Below are positions 8,154-39,733 of a stretch of 64,000 nucleotides of DNA, one piece after another. Positions within the stretch are counted from its first letter, which is position 1, and each line of letters opens with the position of its first letter. The notes beneath the pieces were generated by a model. It was given only the letters and a program-made list of their open reading frames with translations. It was not told the origin of the DNA and did not search any database. Source of the stretch: Bacteroidota bacterium (GTDB lineage: Bacteria > Bacteroidota > Bacteroidia > Bacteroidales > VadinHA17); contig JAKPDL010000151.1 in NCBI GenBank assembly GCA_029552825.1, positions 1 through 64,000 of the forward strand, in the 5' to 3' direction. A program made the position numbers and the translations under genes.

Positions 8154-8900
8154 ATGGCAAAAGTTGGAATTATAGGCGGTTCAGGTCTGGAAAATCCTGA
8201 AATTCTGAAATCTCAACAGGAAATTAATATAGTTAATCTTTACGGAGCTCCCAGTTCGCCTCTCATATGCGGAACTATCGAAGATACAGAAGTGGTGATA
8301 ATATCCCGTCACGGCAAACAGCATACCATTCCACCTTCAAAGGTCAATAACAGGGCAAATATTCTTGCCCTTAAAGAAGCTGGCTGTACCCACATTATTG
8401 CAACTACAGCATGCGGAAGCCTCAGGGAGGAAATCAAAAGAGGTGACCTTGTAATTCCCGACCAGTTTATTGATTTTACACGCCACCGAATCATTACTTT
8501 TTTTGATGAATTTGAACCTGGCAAACTGGGCCATACACCCATGGCAGACCCTTTCGACTCCCGCCTGCGTGAATTGCTTATAAATACTGCAAAAGGTCTG
8601 AAGCTCCCCATTCATGAAAAAGGCACAGTAATAACAATTGAAGGCCCCCGGTTCTCTACCCGGGCAGAATCCAGAATGTTCCGCCTGTGGGGTGCAGATA
8701 TAATCAATATGTCAACTGCACCCGAGGCAATACTGGCAAATGAAGCAGGAATCCCATATGCCGTGATCGCAATGAGTACAGACTACGACTCATGGAAAAA
8801 CGATGAAAAACCTGTTACATGGGAAGATGTACTGGAAGTTTTCAGACAAAACGTTCAGAATGTTCTTAAATTGCTGATTAGAGTAATACCTGAAATTTAA
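8154..8900 (+). CDS. mtnP: S-methyl-5'-thioadenosine phosphorylase
   Basis: Cleaves methylthioadenosine with phosphate to adenine and methylthioribose-1-phosphate, the MtnA substrate. It has 248 residues. It shows the N-terminal GIIGGSGLE (5-13), the phosphate-binding SRHGKQHTIPPSKVNNRAN segment, ATTACGSL, the IEGPRFSTRAESRMFR loop and INMSTAPEA. The specificity loop STDYDSW has the two Asp residues of adenosine-type MTA phosphorylases in place of the Asn of purine phosphorylases. It starts two bases after the aldolase stop and ends the operon. Freed adenine could feed purine salvage or the adenine deaminase at 38117. Confidence 0.94.
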   Translation: MAKVGIIGGSGLENPEILKSQQEINIVNLYGAPSSPLICGTIEDTEVVIISRHGKQHTIPPSKVNNRANILALKEAGCTHIIATTACGSLREEIKRGDLVIPDQFIDFTRHRIITFFDEFEPGKLGHTPMADPFDSRLRELLINTAKGLKLPIHEKGTVITIEGPRFSTRAESRMFRLWGADIINMSTAPEAILANEAGIPYAVIAMSTDYDSWKNDEKPVTWEDVLEVFRQNVQNVLKLLIRVIPEI

Positions 8901-8969: not shown

Positions 8970-9043
8970 GGGCCCATAGCTCAGCAGGTCAGAGCATCTG
9001 ACTCATAATCAGGGGGTCGCTGGTTCGAATCCAGCTGGGCCCA
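8970..9043 (+). tRNA. tRNA with CAT anticodon (Ile2 or elongator Met)
   Basis: A 74-base cloverleaf. The acceptor stem GGGCCCA pairs with TGGGCCC; the D arm is GCTC/GAGC; the anticodon arm is TCTGA-CTCATAA-TCAGG with anticodon CAT; the T arm is GCTGG-TTCGAAT-CCAGC; the discriminator is A. CCA is not encoded in full (ACCTCC follows). The D-loop, variable loop GGGTC and GCTGG T-stem resemble the lysidine-modified tRNA-Ile2 of E. coli more than its elongator tRNA-Met, so Ile2 (reading AUA after TilS modification) is my first choice. Anticodon sequence alone cannot settle it. Confidence 0.95.
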
Positions 9044-9485: not shown

Positions 9486-10451
9486 TTACTGGCACTTGAG
9501 ATTTTTTCTTTCAGCATTGGCTGCCTGAACAAAAACTCCGTATGCTGCATTCTTAAATGAAGCACAGGCTTCAGATACTTGACCTTTGCCCGACTGTGCA
9601 AGTCCTAACTGGAAATAATATTTTGCCTTGGCTTCTGCATCACCGGTTTCGAGTTCCAGACCCTTTCTGGCAAATTCAGCTGCTTTGTCAAAATTTTTCT
9701 TTTTATTATAAACATCAGCATAAAAATAGAAAAGGTCTTTGTCATCACCATATCTGGCAGCCTTATCGAGTAATGAAAGTGCCTCATCGAGATTTCCTGC
9801 CTGATTTTCTTGTGATCCAGCAGCACGGAAATAACCCAGAGCTAGCTCCGATGCCTGCTTAATCTTCTCCTCATCATTCTGTGCCTTTACCTTCTGCAGA
9901 AATAAATCTATTGTCTTTTCAAAATCATCTGAACTGTTCTGAGCAGCGTAAATCAAAGCCTTGTTATATATCGCGGTAACATAATCCGGATTAATTGTAA
10001 GAATACTGTCGAATACCAGCAGGGCATCGGCATAATTTTTTTGTGCAAAGAGTTCCGTTCCCATCTGATAATATCCTCTGAGCAAAATATTCCGAGCATT
10101 TTCCTTCTGGGTCGCATTGTTGTACTTTTCTGCAGCAGCCATTGCTTTCTTTGCTGCAGCTATTACCTCAGAAGCCGGTTTCTTTTCATTATATGCGGCA
10201 GCAGCAACCTTCGTATACAAACCTGGTAACACCTGCATCGCTTTTTGCTTCAGGTCATTAACCGACTCTCCAACTTTTTCTGATAACACAATAACATTCT
10301 CAAAAGCTTGAATTGCAGCATTTATATCTGTCTGTATGGCCTTGGCACCTTCATTATAAACCTTTATCACATCATTGCGTTCCTGGGCAACTGCCACTCC
10401 TGTTAAACATAAGAATAATAAAACTACTTCTGCTTTAATAATATTCTTCAT
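9486..10451 (-). CDS. Exported tetratricopeptide-repeat protein
   Basis: A 321-residue protein with an N-terminal signal peptide (MKNIIKAEVVLLFLCLTG, cleavage near AVAQ). The rest is helical, Ala- and Lys-rich, with TPR-like units such as ALLVFDSILTINPDYVTAIYNKALIY (about 143-168) and KAAEFARKGLELETGDAEAKYYFQLG-like repeats toward the C-terminus. It has no enzymatic motif and probably acts as a periplasmic scaffold. Monocistronic on the minus strand, separated from the divergent sialidase-like gene by a 345-bp AT-rich gap. The specific role is unknown. Confidence 0.8.
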   Translation of the reverse strand: MKNIIKAEVVLLFLCLTGVAVAQERNDVIKVYNEGAKAIQTDINAAIQAFENVIVLSEKVGESVNDLKQKAMQVLPGLYTKVAAAAYNEKKPASEVIAAAKKAMAAAEKYNNATQKENARNILLRGYYQMGTELFAQKNYADALLVFDSILTINPDYVTAIYNKALIYAAQNSSDDFEKTIDLFLQKVKAQNDEEKIKQASELALGYFRAAGSQENQAGNLDEALSLLDKAARYGDDKDLFYFYADVYNKKKNFDKAAEFARKGLELETGDAEAKAKYYFQLGLAQSGKGQVSEACASFKNAAYGVFVQAANAERKNLKCQ

Positions 10452-22487: not shown

Positions 22488-22934
22488 TTAAACAATCTTT
22501 AATGGAATTTTTGCTATTCTGTTAGTATGTCTTCCACCCTCAAATTCAGTGGTAAGGAAAGTCCTGACAATCAAAATTGCTTCCGGCTCCGAGATAAACC
22601 TGCCAGGCAAAGCGCATATATTGGCATCATTATGTGCCCTGGCTAAACGACTAATTTCTTCATTCCAGCAAAGCGCACTCCTTATCTTTTGATGTTTGTT
22701 TACTGTCATATTTATTCCATTACCTGTAGCACAAATAGTTATTCCCAGGTCATATTCACCTTTCGAAATTGATAAAGCAAGAGGATGAGCATAATCTGGA
22801 TAATCTGTACTTTCATCCGAAAAACTTCCAAAATCCTTGAATTCATATCCATTTTTTTTCAGAAATTCAATTATTTTGCCTTTCAGAAAATAACCAGCAT
22901 GATCACTGGCAATACCTATTTTTTTCATTTTCAT
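22488..22934 (-). CDS. rpiB: Ribose-5-phosphate isomerase B (RpiB/LacAB family)
   Basis: Interconverts ribose-5-phosphate and ribulose-5-phosphate in the pentose phosphate pathway. It has 148 residues. Motifs are IGIASDHAGYFLK at the N-terminus, DYPDYAHPLA, and the active-site ICATGNGINMTVNKHQKIRSAL with the catalytic Cys of the RpiB type, then the HNDANICALPGRF loop. An alternate ATG two codons in (MKKIGIASDHAG) is equally good. It is the first minus-strand gene left of the AT-rich 22935-23397 gap. Confidence 0.94.
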   Translation of the reverse strand: MKMKKIGIASDHAGYFLKGKIIEFLKKNGYEFKDFGSFSDESTDYPDYAHPLALSISKGEYDLGITICATGNGINMTVNKHQKIRSALCWNEEISRLARAHNDANICALPGRFISEPEAILIVRTFLTTEFEGGRHTNRIAKIPLKIV

Positions 22935-23397
22935 TAATTTATTTAATCCGAATTACAATATTCAGACAATGCGTAAAGGTAATCACCAGATACAAATAAA
23001 TCAAAGAGATGATCAAATCAATATTTTATTAACAACAATTTTATTTATCTGTTTATAAATCATTAGAATTTATTAAGATACTATTTTTTGAAAATTTAAT
23101 AAAAGACCTTAAACCTCTTATAAACAATTTAACATTTAATTTTGTTTATGTTTTTATGAAGATATTTATAAATTAACAGATGTTAATATAATGTTTAAAA
23201 TGCTGAATATCAAAAATGGTATACTTTTTGACATGTTTAAAACATGTTTTTATGTATGTGATTGTAATATTTAAAAGCAAATTTTATTTTTTATTTCAAC
23301 AATATTAACAGAATATATTCTAATTCTTTTAAGAAAAATTTTTAAACCTGTAATAAAGAACACTGTTAAAAAACCGATATATTTAACATCCTGGGAA
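22935..23397. other. AT-rich divergent gap; candidate replication origin
   Basis: No gene. G and C together are scarce, with long A/T tracts. By hand count, C exceeds G on the plus strand to the left (3 G and 17 C in 21301-21360; 4 and 12 in 21661-21720, inside a plus-strand gene), while G exceeds C to the right (18 and 10 in 24481-24540). Genes mostly point outward on both sides. DnaA-box-like 9-mers TTATWAACA occur at 23026-23034 (+), 23050-23058 (-) and 23118-23126 (+), with near matches at 23181-23189 and 23302-23310. No perfect TTATCCACA is present. With parS-like sites 15 kb away, an origin is plausible, not proven. Confidence 0.42.
23227..23258 (+). promoter_or_regulatory. Putative nadA promoter with a palindromic operator in the spacer
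   Basis: TTTG (23227-23230), 20 bases, then TATGTATG (23251-23258), one mismatch from TAnnTTTG. The spacer is almost filled by a perfect 17-base palindrome, ACATGTTT-A-AAACATGT (23231-23247). A repressor bound there would cover the promoter. The start site would fall near 23265, giving a leader of about 130 bases before nadA. Confidence 0.45.
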
Positions 23398-24339
23398 ATG
23401 ACAGAAATAGATTACATAAAAGAAATTGAAAGGCTCAAAAAAGAAAAGAACGCAATCATACTTGCGCACTTTTATCAGACTCCAGATATACAGGATATCG
23501 CCGATTACGTTGGAGACAGTCTTGCATTAGCACAGAAAGCTTCGTCAGCTGATGCTTCGATTATAGTAATTGCAGGAGTTAAATTCATGGCTGAGACTGC
23601 GAAAATATTGGTTCCTGAAAAAAAGGTATTGATCCCCGATATTAACGCAGGATGTTCACTAGCAGATTCATGTACACCTGAAGAATTTAAAAAATTTATT
23701 GAAGAAAACCCAGGAAGAACGGTTGTTTCATATGTTAATACTTCAGTTGAAATAAAGGCAATGTCTGATATCATATGTACGTCATCAAATGCGCTACAGA
23801 TAATTGAATCTCTACCTGAAAATGAAAAGATAATTTTTGCACCCGACAGAAACCTTGGTAACTACATAAAAAGTAAAACCACAAGAGATATAATTGTTTG
23901 GGATGGAGCCTGTCATGTTCATGAAAAATTTTCACTTGAAGGAATCCTTGAATTAAAGAAAAAGTATAAAAATGCCAGAATAATTGTCCATCCAGAATGC
24001 GAATTACCAGTAAGAATGATTGCTGATTTTATTGGTTCAACTTCAGCATTACTTAAATTTACAAAAGAAGATAATGGCGAAATTTATATAGTTGCTACTG
24101 AACCAGGCATTCTACATCAGATGATTAAGTCAAATCCGAATAAGAAATATATACCTGCACCACCATCCGATTTATCTTGTGCCTGCAGTGAATGTAACTA
24201 TATGAAAATGATTACACTTGAAAAAATATATTATACAATTCTCAATGAAGAACCTGAAATAATTCTGGATGAAGAAATAATAAAAAGGGCCTCAAAGTCT
24301 GTTTTAAGAATGTTTGAAGTATCTTCAAGGATTGGTTAA
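23398..24339 (+). CDS. nadA: Quinolinate synthase
   Basis: Condenses iminoaspartate with DHAP to quinolinate, using a [4Fe-4S] cluster, in de novo NAD synthesis. It has 313 residues, the short NadA form. The three cluster cysteines are in INAGCSLADSC, WDGACHVHEKF and LSCACSECNYMKM. The N-terminal AHFYQTPDIQDIADYVGDSL and substrate-binding SYVNTS and HPEC segments are also clear. nadB and nadC are absent from the window, so NadA is separated from its pathway partners. It is the first plus-strand gene right of the AT-rich gap. Confidence 0.97.
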   Translation: MTEIDYIKEIERLKKEKNAIILAHFYQTPDIQDIADYVGDSLALAQKASSADASIIVIAGVKFMAETAKILVPEKKVLIPDINAGCSLADSCTPEEFKKFIEENPGRTVVSYVNTSVEIKAMSDIICTSSNALQIIESLPENEKIIFAPDRNLGNYIKSKTTRDIIVWDGACHVHEKFSLEGILELKKKYKNARIIVHPECELPVRMIADFIGSTSALLKFTKEDNGEIYIVATEPGILHQMIKSNPNKKYIPAPPSDLSCACSECNYMKMITLEKIYYTILNEEPEIILDEEIIKRASKSVLRMFEVSSRIG

Positions 24340-25911: not shown

Positions 25912-26934
25912 ATGAATAAATTTAATATCAGGAAGGAATCACTTTTGGTTACCGACAGGGAATTTGAAAAAAAGTTACGCCCTCTTACTTTTTCTGATTT
26001 TAAAGGACAGAAACAAATAATAGAAAATCTTACCATTTTTGTTACTGCTGCCAGACAGCGTAAAGAAGCACTTGATCATGTTCTGCTTCACGGACCACCT
26101 GGACTGGGAAAGACTACTCTTGCATCAATAATTGCCAATGAAATGGGTGTTGGAATGAAGTCTACATCCGGACCTGTTCTTGATAAACCAGGTGATCTGG
26201 CAGGTTTACTTACTGGTCTTCAAGAAGGGGATGTTCTCTTTATTGACGAAATACATCGTCTAAGTCCTGTAGTTGAAGAATATCTGTATGCAGCTATGGA
26301 GGACTTCAAAATTGATATAATGATTGACAAAGGACCAAGTGCCAGATCTGTACAGCTTACATTAAATAAATTCACACTAATTGGTGCAACAACACGCTCA
26401 GGTCTTTTAACAAGTCCTTTAAGAGCAAGGTTTGGAATAAAATTTCATTTCGATTATTATGAAGCTGAAGTTCTGAAAAGTATTGTTAAAAGATCTGCTT
26501 CAATACTCAACATAAGAATAGAAGATGATGCTGCAGAAGAAATAGCATCAAGGAGCAGGGGTACGCCAAGAATTGCAAATGCTTTACTTAGAAGAATAAG
26601 AGATTTTGCGCAGGTTAAAGGAACCGGAATAATTGACCTGGAGATAACAAAAACAGCATTGCTGGCATTAAATATTGATAATAACGGACTTGACGAAATG
26701 GATAATAAAATCCTGTCAGTTATTATCGATAAATTCAAAGGTGGACCAGTTGGCTTAAATACAATTGCCACGGCAGTGGGAGAGGAGAGTGATACAATAG
26801 AAGAAGTATATGAACCCTTTCTGATAAAGGAAGGATATATAAAACGCACACCAAGAGGGAGGGAAGCTACGGAAAAAGCCTACAACCATTTGGGGAGAAT
26901 AAAAGGAACAGAACAGATTGGAAAATTGTTCTGA
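25912..26934 (+). CDS. ruvB: Holliday junction branch-migration ATPase RuvB
   Basis: The AAA+ motor that drives branch migration with RuvA. It has 340 residues, the standard length. Walker A GPPGLGKT, Walker [10 protein letters not shown], the sensor 1 GATTRSG and the arginine-finger-type SPLRARFGI are all intact. The C-terminal winged helix is visible in [23 protein letters not shown]. ruvA and ruvC are not adjacent. It ends a plus-strand run with nadA and the YwqK protein and is convergent with the crp gene. Confidence 0.98.
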
Positions 26935-35782: not shown

Positions 35783-36195
35783 TGAGATTTTTCTATTATC
35801 AAGTAAAGTACAGAATTAAAAATAGCAGGAAGTTATTAAAGAGTTTGGAAGAGGTCATCAGAAATTATAATTATATACCTGGTGACCTCAATTATATTAT
35901 TACAAACAACAGAGAGATAAAAGAACTTAATAAGAAATTTCTAAAACATAATTATGCAACAGATGTAATAAGCTTTAAATATGATGAGGGAAATGTTATA
36001 AATGGTGAAGTTTATATAAGCATTGAAAAAGTAAAAGCAAATGCCAGGAAATATCGAGTATCTGTTAAGAATGAGTTAGAAAGAGTGTTAATTCACGGAA
36101 CTCTTCATTTATGTGGATTCCTTGATTATAATGAAAAGGAAAGGGAAAAGATGAGAAGTGAGGAAAATCTGTGGATAGAAAAATTTGGAGATTAA
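35782..36195 (+). CDS. ybeY: Endoribonuclease YbeY (rRNA maturation)
   Basis: Metal-dependent RNase involved in 16S rRNA 3' maturation and ribosome quality control. It has 137 residues, starting at a GTG that overlaps the previous stop by one base. The family motif normally supplies three His ligands (HGxLHLxGYDH). Here it reads [13 protein letters not shown], keeping two His (HGTLH) with Asp at the third position. A D/K-type third position is, as I recall, common in Bacteroidota YbeY, so it may still be active. The rest fits: [13 protein letters not shown] and GEVYISIEK. Its end is nearly adjacent to mnmG. Confidence 0.9.
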
Positions 36196-36197
36196 TT

Positions 36198-38072
36198 ATG
36201 GAATTCAATTATGATATTGTAGTAGTAGGTGGTGGGCATGCTGGATGTGAAGCAGCTCATATTGCAGCAAAAATGGGTGCTAGAACTGTGCTGATAACGA
36301 TGGACATGACGAAATTTGCTCAAATGTCATGCAATCCTGCAATGGGTGGAATAGCCAAAGGCCAGATTATAAGAGAAATTGATGCATTAGGAGGAATGAG
36401 CGGGATTATAACAGATAAAAGTATGATACAATTCAGGATGTTGAATAGATCGAAGGGACCTGCAATGTGGAGTCCGAGGGCGCAATGCGATAGACAAATG
36501 TTCTCAAGAGAATGGAGAAAGGTACTTGAAAATACTGAAAATCTTTATATATGGCAAGAACCTGTAGTTAAAGTCATTATACAGGAGAATAAAGTAAATG
36601 GAATAGAAACAATATCAGGAACAAAATTTAATTCAAAAGCTGTTATTATAACTGCGGGAACATTTTTAAATGGTTTAATACATGTAGGATTAAAAAATTA
36701 TCAGGGAGGAAGAACCGGAGAATTGGCGTCAACTGGTTTAAGTGATCAATTAAGAGATGAAGGATTCATTGTAGGAAGGTTAAAAACAGGGACAAGTGCA
36801 AGAATTGATGGTAGGAGCTTGAATTTTTCGAAAATGATTGAGCAAAAGGGTGACGGAGATGGAAGATGTTTTTCTTTTATGCATAATAAGTTATTTATTA
36901 AAAATGAAAAAAGTTGTTATATAACTTATACTAATGAAGAAGTACATGAAGAGTTAAGAAAGGGATTGAAATTTAGTCCTTTGTATACAGGAATAATAAA
37001 AGGAAGAGGTCCAAGATATTGTCCAAGCATAGAAGATAAAATCGTAACGTTTAAAGAAAAGAAATCACATCAAATGTTTATAGAGCCTGAAGGATGGGAA
37101 ACAAATGAATATTATATAAATGGATTTGCTAGTAGCTTGCCGCTTGATGTTCAATTGAAAGCGTTAAGAAAAATACCAGGTCTTGAAAATGTTGAAATTT
37201 TCAGGCCTGGATACGCAATAGAATATGATTATTTTCCACCAACGCAATTAAAACATAACCTTGAAACGAAATTGGTTGATGGATTATTTTTTGCAGGACA
37301 GGTAAATGGTACCACAGGCTATGAAGAAGCCGCAGCGCAAGGATTAATAGCAGGGATAAATGCTGTTTTAAAAATTAAAGGAAAGAAACCATTTGTGATG
37401 ACAAGAGATGAATCATATATAGGAGTTTTAATTGATGATCTGGTCATAAAAGGGATTGATGAACCTTATAGGATGTTTACTTCAAGAGCTGAATACAGAA
37501 TACTTCTTAGACAGGATAACGCTGACGAAAGATTAACACGAAAAGGATATGAACTGGGAACAATTGGAGAAGATAGAATAAGAAGATTAGAGGAGAAAGA
37601 AGAAATGGTAAATGAAATTATCGAGTTTGTAAAAAAAGAAAGCATTGAACCAGAAAAGATAAATGAATTTTTAACGCAAAAGGAAACCTCATGCTTAATA
37701 CAAAAAACAAAATTGATAAATATAGCACTAAGACCTCAAATCGGTTTAAAGGAATTACTGGAAAGGGTAAGGAAAGCAAAAGATCTAAAGGCTTTAAAAT
37801 CGGAAAGAGTTGATGAAATATTTGAATGTGCCGAAATTAAGATAAAATATGAAGGATATATTAAAAGAGAGAGACAAATTGCTGATAAAATAAAGAGGCT
37901 GGAAACATTAAGAATTCCAGAAGACATAAATTATAATGAATTATTATCAATATCAACAGAAGGAAGACAAAAGTTGAACCGGATAAGACCAGAGACCATT
38001 GGTCAGGCAAGCAGAATTAGTGGTGTTTCACCTTCAGATATCAATGTTTTGCTTATGTATCTGGGGAGATAA
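36198..38072 (+). CDS. mnmG: tRNA uridine-5-carboxymethylaminomethyl modification enzyme MnmG
   Basis: FAD protein that, with MnmE, installs carboxymethylaminomethyl at U34 of tRNAs reading A/G-ending codons. It has 624 residues. The start at 36198 gives [21 protein letters not shown]; an ATG at 36171 lies inside ybeY and adds a non-family stretch. Conserved segments are the FAD motif [30 protein letters not shown], the glycine-rich FAD site and [21 protein letters not shown]. mnmE is not in the window. mnmG often lies near chromosome origins; the stop is followed directly by a parS-type site. Confidence 0.97.
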
Positions 38073-38073
38073 A

Positions 38074-38089
38074 TGTTCCACGTGGAACA
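38074..38089. other. parS-type ParB binding site
   Basis: The 16-mer TGTTCCACGTGGAACA is a perfect palindrome and matches the bacterial parS consensus TGTTNCACGTGNAACA at every fixed position. The palindrome extends one base each side (38073-38090). It begins two bases after the mnmG stop codon, in a 44-base intergenic gap. The match is exact; ParB binding is inferred. Confidence 0.8.
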
Positions 38090-38116: not shown

Positions 38117-39733
38117 ATGATATCTGGCAATTTGATAGATATTTTCGAAAGAACAATATACCCTGCTGAGATTGAGATAGAGAACGGCAGGATAAGAAAG
38201 ATAAAGAGAAAAGAAAGAAATGAGGAATTTTACATAATACCCGGACTAATTGATTCCCATATCCATATAGAGAGTTCAATGTGTACACCGGGGTCATTTT
38301 CTGAAGAAGCTGTTTCACGTGGAACAACAGCAGTAGTTTCTGACCCTCATGAAATAGCAAATGTTCTGGGTATTGCTGGAGTTAATTTTATGATTGAAGA
38401 TGGACTGAAGGTTCCCTTGAAGTTCTTCTTCGGAGCACCTTCGTGTGTACCAGCCACACCTTTTGAAACTTCAGGAGCTGAAATCGGAATAAACGATATT
38501 GATATGCTCCTGAGCAAACCAGAGATAAAATATCTGGCCGAAATGATGAATTTCCCAGGTGTTATTTATGAAGATAAAGATGTATTAAGCAAAATAAAAA
38601 TTGCCCATAAATATAAAAAGCCAGTTGACGGACATGCACCCGGATTATCAGGAGATAACCTGAGAAAATATATTGAGGCTGGTATTTCTACCGATCATGA
38701 ATGTGTGACCCTTGAGGAAGCTAAAGAAAAAATAGGCCTTGGAATGAAGGTCATGATTCGTGAAGGAAGCGCTGCAAGAAATCTGGATTCTTTAAAGGAA
38801 CTAATAAGAACAAATCCGGATATGGTCATGTTATGTAGTGACGACCTGCATCCGGAGATGCTTGCAAGAAGGCACATTGGACTACTTGTTGCACAACTTG
38901 TAAATGAAGGTTTTGACCTCTTTGATGTTATACGACTGTGCACCTTAAACCCTACCCGGCACTACAAACTTGAAACCGGACTTCTCAGAGAAGGCGACCC
39001 GGCAGATTTTATTATTGTTGATACTCCTTACAGAATGAATGTTCTGGAGACCTGGATAAACGGGGAGAAAGTCTTCGATCGTGGTAAACTACTTTATGAA
39101 TATAAAGGAGGAACTCCTGCAAACAAATTCAATTGTTCTGAAATAACAACCCAACAAATTTCAGTAAAGATCAGCGGAAACCAGATCCGTGTAATAGAAG
39201 CATTTGATGGACAAATTTTTACAAAAGAAGTAATTGTGCCGGTAAGAAATGATTCATTTATAACTCAAAATCCTTCTGAAGATCTCCTGAAAATTGTTGT
39301 TAAGGACAGATATAATGACTCTTCCCTTGCGGTAGGTTTTATAAAAGGCTTCGGGCTCAAAAAGGGTGCGTTTGCAAGCTCTGTAGCACACGACAGCCAT
39401 AACATCATTTGTGTTGGTACAAATGATAATGATATAGTAAATGCAATAAACGCAATTATTAAACTACGGGGAGGACTATCTGTTGCAGCGGGTAGTAATA
39501 TAGAAACGCTTTCGCTACCCATTGCTGGAATAATGTCTGACAGACCGGTAAAAGAGATAGCTGGAAAATACGAAATATTGTCGGGAATCGTAAAAGAACT
39601 CGGCTGCCAGCTTGAAGCACCCTTTATGACACTATCTTTCATGGCACTGCTTGTAATACCTGAACTTAAGTTAAGTGATCGTGGCCTGTTTGATTCAAAA
39701 CAGTTCAAATTTGTTCCCCTCACAGTTAGCTGA
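38117..39733 (+). CDS. ade: Adenine deaminase
   Basis: Converts adenine to hypoxanthine and ammonia with a dinuclear metal centre. It has 538 residues. Markers are the metal-binding SHIHIESSM (HxHxE, about 54-62), SRGTTAVVSDPHEIANVLG, GHAPGL and the C-terminal VAHDSHN...GLSVAAG segment typical of Ade. The start ATG at 38117 is 27 bases after a parS-type site, and a second parS-type site lies inside the gene (38311-38326) at the SRGT codons. GC content rises sharply at this gene relative to mnmG. Adenine may come from mtnP. Confidence 0.95.
   Translation: MISGNLIDIFERTIYPAEIEIENGRIRKIKRKERNEEFYIIPGLIDSHIHIESSMCTPGSFSEEAVSRGTTAVVSDPHEIANVLGIAGVNFMIEDGLKVPLKFFFGAPSCVPATPFETSGAEIGINDIDMLLSKPEIKYLAEMMNFPGVIYEDKDVLSKIKIAHKYKKPVDGHAPGLSGDNLRKYIEAGISTDHECVTLEEAKEKIGLGMKVMIREGSAARNLDSLKELIRTNPDMVMLCSDDLHPEMLARRHIGLLVAQLVNEGFDLFDVIRLCTLNPTRHYKLETGLLREGDPADFIIVDTPYRMNVLETWINGEKVFDRGKLLYEYKGGTPANKFNCSEITTQQISVKISGNQIRVIEAFDGQIFTKEVIVPVRNDSFITQNPSEDLLKIVVKDRYNDSSLAVGFIKGFGLKKGAFASSVAHDSHNIICVGTNDNDIVNAINAIIKLRGGLSVAAGSNIETLSLPIAGIMSDRPVKEIAGKYEILSGIVKELGCQLEAPFMTLSFMALLVIPELKLSDRGLFDSKQFKFVPLTVS
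38311..38326. other. Second parS-type site, inside ade
   Basis: TGTTTCACGTGGAACA matches the parS consensus at all fixed positions; the two halves differ only at the degenerate base. It encodes part of A-V-S-R-G-T, a conserved stretch, so protein constraint contributes, but intragenic parS sites are well known. It is 237 bases from the first site. Confidence 0.65.

Follow-up and report, generated by a model that had tools for sequence, protein, structure and literature searches.

A conserved block between rpiB and nadA as a candidate replication origin in an uncultured Bacteroidales genome

The locus described here raises the question of whether a short gap between rpiB and nadA, on a contig that does not carry dnaA, is where replication of the chromosome starts, dnaA being a gene by which bacterial origins are often recognised. 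The window, i.e. the whole stretch of DNA analysed, comprises 64,000 nucleotides (G000:C14:1-64000) of a MAG of 3.38 Mb in 237 contigs. The full-length dnaA of this genome is found on another contig (G000:C76:38495-39892) and not on C14. According to the available passages of three earlier studies, oriC is commonly far from dnaA in Bacteroidetes (PMC4755523), parS clusters together with GC skew have served to locate the origins of 12 gut bacteria, supported by coverage (PMC10197239), and in Blattabacterium, a Bacteroidetes endosymbiont with no dnaA and no boxes found, the origin was placed by skew in dapB (PMC2768785).

An earlier note on this DNA proposed the gap as a candidate oriC. The present analysis supports this by independent lines that converge on the gap: a switch in skew at silent sites, parS beside gidA, a conserved block that coincides with the skew minimum in ten of 19 genomes of other families, and the fit of a one-contig relative. 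The gap is very probably the chromosomal replication origin. The genes and sites that define the region are:

22488..22934, minus strand, rpiB, left flank of the gap
22935..23397, no strand, intergenic region proposed as oriC, with rpiB (minus) at left and nadA (plus) at right
23398..24339, plus strand, nadA, right flank
25912..26934, plus strand, ruvB, right flank
36171..38072, plus strand, mnmG/gidA (PF01134, E = 1.1e-165)
38074..38089, no strand, exact parS, beginning 2 bp downstream of the gidA stop codon
38311..38326, no strand, exact parS, inside the adenine deaminase gene (38117-39733)

Composition, strand asymmetry and candidate boxes

The gap, correctly described in the earlier note as AT-rich, has a G+C content of 19.2%, and the 300-bp stretch of lowest stability in the 64-kb window begins at 23022, inside it. 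At 100 bp the gap is only second, a stretch at 10415 being slightly less stable. The easily melted AT-rich region expected of an oriC is thus present at the 300-bp scale.

The cumulative GC skew of the 64-kb window has its minimum at 23133, inside the gap, in agreement with the position of about 23 kb that had been named for a supporting genome-wide minimum. The switch from minus to plus expected at an oriC is seen in the window, at silent sites, and genome-wide in the relative G229, of which 18.6% was sampled. All 14 minus-strand genes to the left of the gap have G<C on the plus strand. The same excess of C had been claimed for the plus-strand genes on this side; it holds for mtnP (8154-8900, TIGR01694; plus-strand skew -0.034), for the VanZ gene (-0.117) and for four-fold degenerate sites, but the raw skew is negative in only four of the eight genes, which pooled give +0.007. 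At four-fold degenerate sites the plus-strand skew to the left is -0.214 in plus-strand genes (346 G/C sites) and -0.154 in minus-strand genes, while to the right, where an excess of G had been noted, it is +0.149 and +0.246, respectively. The sign switches whatever the strand of the gene, and the replication-linked bias is therefore separated from the effect of gene orientation. The right-minus-left contrast at these sites is 0.381, a value reached by none of 20000 gene permutations. With ORFs called by script, the lowest point of the silent-site skew is 24524, which is 1.3 kb to the right of the centre of the conserved block described below. Gene orientation turns outward at the gap as had been noted, with 14 of 22 genes leftward on the left and 13 of the first 16 rightward on the right.

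The parS-type sites noted 15 kb away prove to be two exact matches, at 38074 and 38311, and no other exact parS occurs in the 3.38-Mb MAG. The gene that precedes the first of them, gidA, is a classical origin-proximal gene. ParB is encoded on contig C28, so that the parS near the gap and the encoded ParB together give the picture of a ParABS-associated origin region. In the genus, parS is found 13-15 kb from the gap on its nadA side in all ten stretches long enough. Exact parS is present in only 238 of 393 genomes of the order. A survey of 57 order genomes gave a RuvB match in 55, and parS and ruvB on one contig in 14; the distance between them is 7-173 kb in 12 of these and 421 and 503 kb in the other two, same-contig pairs being biased to short distances. 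In the order at large the neighbourhood, though not the exact site, appears to be kept.

The motifs found within the gap are:

23026..23034, plus strand, TTATTAACA, candidate DnaA box
23050..23058, minus strand, TTATAAACA, candidate DnaA box
23080..23330, plus strand, conserved origin block of about 250 bp (match to model R1 at 23108-23317, 97.5 bits in the window)
23118..23126, plus strand, TTATAAACA, candidate DnaA box within the conserved block
23137..23144, plus strand, TAATTTTG, similar to TAnnTTTG, the -7 element of Bacteroidota promoters, which is present here in 23 of the 26 genus rows
23172..23187, no strand, ATTAACA-GA-TGTTAAT, facing pair of candidate boxes, conserved across families
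23210..23231, no strand, TCAAAAATGGTATACTTTTTGA, imperfect palindrome, kept in most genus members and not across families
23298..23311, plus strand, AACAATATTAACAG, direct pair of candidate boxes, conserved across families

The several TTATWAACA 9-mers reported in both orientations number exactly three (23026 and 23118 on the plus strand, 23050 on the minus strand), against a mean of 0.14 in 5000 dinucleotide shuffles of the gap, none of which reached three. Together with the TTAACA-type hexamers they constitute initiator-box-like repeats above chance, all of them candidate boxes. The recurrent site is TTAACA/TGTTAA rather than TTATNCACA, and the hexamers ATTAAC, TGTTAA and CTGTTA showed the highest enrichment in 26 gaps compared with 60 shuffles. 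Boxes of the E. coli consensus TTATNCACA were not found, the only TTATNNACA matches in the gap being the three TTATWAACA, and TTATCCACA boxes are likewise absent from the gap. The search for a known binder of the palindrome at 23210-23231 gave none.

The conserved block within and beyond the genus

A nadA match was obtained in 34 of the 35 other members of the genus, and the loci of 29 were taken. The genus alignment consists of 25 of these gaps and the window (26 rows; L011, L018, L025 and L030 left out), one row, L028, being without part of the block. Mean column identity is 0.76 in the block (23080-23330), compared with 0.49 for the gap sequence left of it and 0.75 at the start of nadA, columns of fewer than 13 letters being dropped. 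The spacing from ATTAACA-NN-TGTTAAT to AACANNATTAACAG is 123 bases in 21 of the 23 measurable rows among the 26. The model R1 used to search for the block is a sequence-only model of 28 rows, one of which (L025) is poorly aligned and contains Ns. For skew, 12 genus stretches were fetched, of which one (G008) ended short of the gap. The minimum falls within 640 bp upstream of nadA in ten of the 11 stretches that cover the gap; the exception is G011, with a local minimum 11.5 kb off. In 276 kb of a 281-kb contig of G014, the minimum is at 156971 and nadA at 157266, and the only two parS are at 172007 and 172607.

Beyond the genus, R1 matches were found in 25 of 119 order genomes, a count that includes the window's genome and one genus mate, and in 23 of 38 further chosen genomes at the looser cut-off of 0.01, some barely. 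An exact two-part pattern taken from the block gave 62 stretches in a genome collection of 257 Gb (size according to its description). By title, 61 of these are from MAGs of Bacteroidota, Bacteroidetes, Bacteroidia, Bacteroidales or Prolixibacteraceae and one is from Flavobacterium. Sixty of the 62 adjoin rpiB, nadA or ruvB (rpiB and nadA 47, contig edge and nadA 8, nothing and nadA 2, rpiB and edge 1, ruvB 2, none 2); L123, which has no such neighbours, lies at a contig end. The pattern matches 20 of the 28 genus rows of alignment A2 and, in a version with a four-base-wider gap, six of the 23 rows of the mixed alignment A3, and is thus specific rather than sensitive. The Flavobacterium muglaense hit (L131:6200-6900) is a tandem repeat of about 138 bases that mimics the two-part pattern, probably by chance; with an R1 score of just 9.8 bits it was rejected as an origin.

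The skew was determined in 19 of the 23 R1-matched genomes of other families, leaving out four with contigs of 3.4-11.8 kb (G068, G074, G093 and G096). The local minimum is within 210 bp of the block in ten of the 19 (G078, G132, G077, G057, G124, G104, G042, G099, G138 and G115). In the remaining ones it is 0.65 kb (G051), 3.4 kb (G105), 5.2 kb (G133), 5.6 kb (G054), 7.0 kb (G135), 9.9 kb (G040), 12.1 kb (G128), 13.2 kb (G117) and 19.5 kb (G058) away. These off-block genomes mostly have weaker R1 matches and several are on one-sided stretches; the minimum is at the block in eight of ten genomes with E<1e-6 and in two of nine above that value. In 24 of 26 other genomes the skew at silent sites is greater on the right side than on the left, narrowly so in G057 and G040; the two that fail are G051 and G058. 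On a 593-kb contig of G099 the stretches left of the block range from -0.075 to +0.015 and those to the right from +0.057 to +0.152.

These distances could also mean that the block is a landmark of the origin region and that melting takes place elsewhere within about 15 kb of it, e.g. nearer to parS and gidA. This would fit with the silent-site minimum of the window, which is displaced to the right of the block centre, with those of relatives passing the sign test, which are up to about 14 kb off, and with the 13-15 kb separating parS and gidA from the gap. The raw minima at the block itself in the ten genomes above, and the coincidence of candidate boxes and lowest 300-bp stability in one and the same gap, make such a displaced origin distinctly improbable.

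A shared regulatory region only, with divergent rpiB and nadA promoters, a nadA leader, TTAACA sites for a regulator and a skew dip caused by the flip in gene orientation, would agree with the divergence of the genes at the gap and with the conserved element in 23 of 26 genus rows. This element, TAATTTTG, resembles TAnnTTTG, the Bacteroidota promoter -7 consensus. As it lies inside the block, some 250 bases before nadA, transcription starting from it would run across the proposed origin. The block nevertheless persists beside one neighbour where the other is missing. In G078 and G057 it is flanked by rpiB and the gene that follows, nadA having no match in the stretch fetched, and still lies at the skew minimum; it is therefore not simply a nadA promoter. 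In G104, G117 and G051 it is kept with nadA while rpiB is not adjacent. The nadA of G057 is on contig C9, which has no R1 match, the one match of that genome being on C115; the 20-kb stretch with nadA has only a shallow skew minimum, 6.9 kb from this gene. The silent-site skew moreover switches in genes of both strands, Rfam at gathering scores has no family in the gap (its sole match in the whole window is a tRNA at 8970), and the proximity of parS is left unexplained. A purely regulatory role is accordingly regarded as distinctly improbable.

Replication initiated in the gap agrees also with G229, a member of another family with a single contig of 4,298,710 bp and an R1 match at 107447. Of 40 stretches sampled for skew (18.6% of the contig), 21 are in the right half, where 19 are positive, and 19 in the left, where 14 are negative. 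A symmetric split fits best at 80-130 kb, a range that includes the block (107 kb), and almost as well at 20-70 kb. The local minimum is at 87341 with raw skew, 20 kb from the block, and at 110664 with silent sites, 3 kb from it. The dnaA gene is at 1.94 Mb, 1.84 Mb from the block, so that neither in G229 nor in the window's genome is dnaA adjacent to the proposed origin; G229 has no exact parS. The position of the block at the switch in the sampled genome-wide skew of G229, and the recurrence of housekeeping neighbours (ruvB, pheS, gidA, uvrC, nadA) round it in other families, make the origin of an integrated plasmid or phage extremely improbable.

In two genomes of other families (G057 and G105, loci L084 and L101) a gene arm with MATE, TPR and M23 genes has changed sides relative to the block and runs in the opposite direction, which is what inversions about an origin would produce. 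In G040 and G133 the MATE-to-M23 arm is on the other side and not reversed.

Proposed initiation and comparison with known origins

The gap is most likely an oriC opened by DnaA through altered boxes and situated away from dnaA. By analogy with known origins, DnaA encoded elsewhere would bind the facing pair (23172-23187), the direct pair (23298-23311) and the 9-mers, and its assembly would melt the adjoining AT-rich DNA. The helicase would then be loaded on both strands and two forks depart in opposite directions, and ParB on the nearby parS may organise the new origins for segregation.

The kind of origin is ordinary, a bacterial oriC away from dnaA as in the available passages of PMC4755523; the likely box and the conserved layout are unusual. 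The predicted oriC of Prevotella intermedia OMA14 is similar in being from Bacteroidetes, at a GC-skew switch, with predicted DnaA boxes and far from dnaA, but it was predicted with E. coli boxes allowing one mismatch, and the passages compared give no conserved arrangement or neighbour genes (PMC4755523). The predicted oriC of Melioribacter roseus, of the wider Bacteroidetes/Chlorobi group, likewise combines a GC-skew switch with DnaA sites; according to the passages available it lies between dnaA and dnaN (PMC3534657), whereas the dnaA of the window's genome is on another contig and that of G229 is 1.84 Mb from the block. Escherichia coli oriC shares the DnaA boxes beside an AT-rich unwinding element, but in the text available its boxes are TTATNCACA, in contrast to TTAACA-centred candidate sites with parS nearby (PMC5742627). 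No earlier description of a Bacteroidota oriC by nadA, or of the DnaA boxes of a Bacteroidales oriC, was found in the literature searched, whose coverage is incomplete, and one may exist. The terms rpiB, nadA and oriC occur together in that literature just in an E. coli mercury-response study, as far as its available text goes. The gidA neighbourhood is common to the E. coli origin and the present candidate.

The block would serve as a sequence-level origin marker for uncultured Bacteroidales, in which dnaA misleads. Such a marker allows correct start coordinates, coverage-based estimates of replication rate, and a direct test of a change in the DnaA box code of the lineage. The E. coli box consensus is TTATnCACA, and DnaA with T435M or R399A is defective in box binding, according to the passages available (PMC5742627). 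The DnaA of the window's genome has DHAT where E. coli has DHTT, i.e. Ala at the position of Thr435 in the recognition helix, perhaps the reason why the boxes contain TTAACA in place of NCACA. Ala is common in the order and was found in all four order DnaAs read first, and Ser or Thr in all 27 readable DnaAs from 30 loci of other classes of the phylum; in the wider DnaA set, seven of 30 were not read by motif. A strict parallel between residue 435 and the block was rejected, as Ala occurs in order genomes with no R1 match (G095, G326 and G050) and in three class genomes of one family (G450, G446 and G482), and G128 has the block with Ser. The wider set thus weakens the case for Ala at 435 as the cause of altered boxes, which is a lead.

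It is tentatively suggested that one origin design is common to a substantial part of the order: between rpiB and nadA/ruvB a facing pair of TTAACA sites would lie at an almost constant distance from a direct pair, dnaA would be encoded elsewhere, and the initiator would recognise a shifted box, TTATTAACA in place of TTATNCACA, a change that Ala at the position of E. coli Thr435 may explain; the opposite is somewhat easier to believe.

Two further features were observed. In many relatives an ATC/ATT trinucleotide track directly follows the direct box pair (columns 620-650 of alignment A1) and is weak in the window; read by eye as a DnaA-trio, the track of the relatives does not match the trio consensus, and this reading was rejected. 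R1 also matches the minus strand weakly at 23049-23252 (9.5 bits, E 0.04), and the block thus has some two-fold symmetry.
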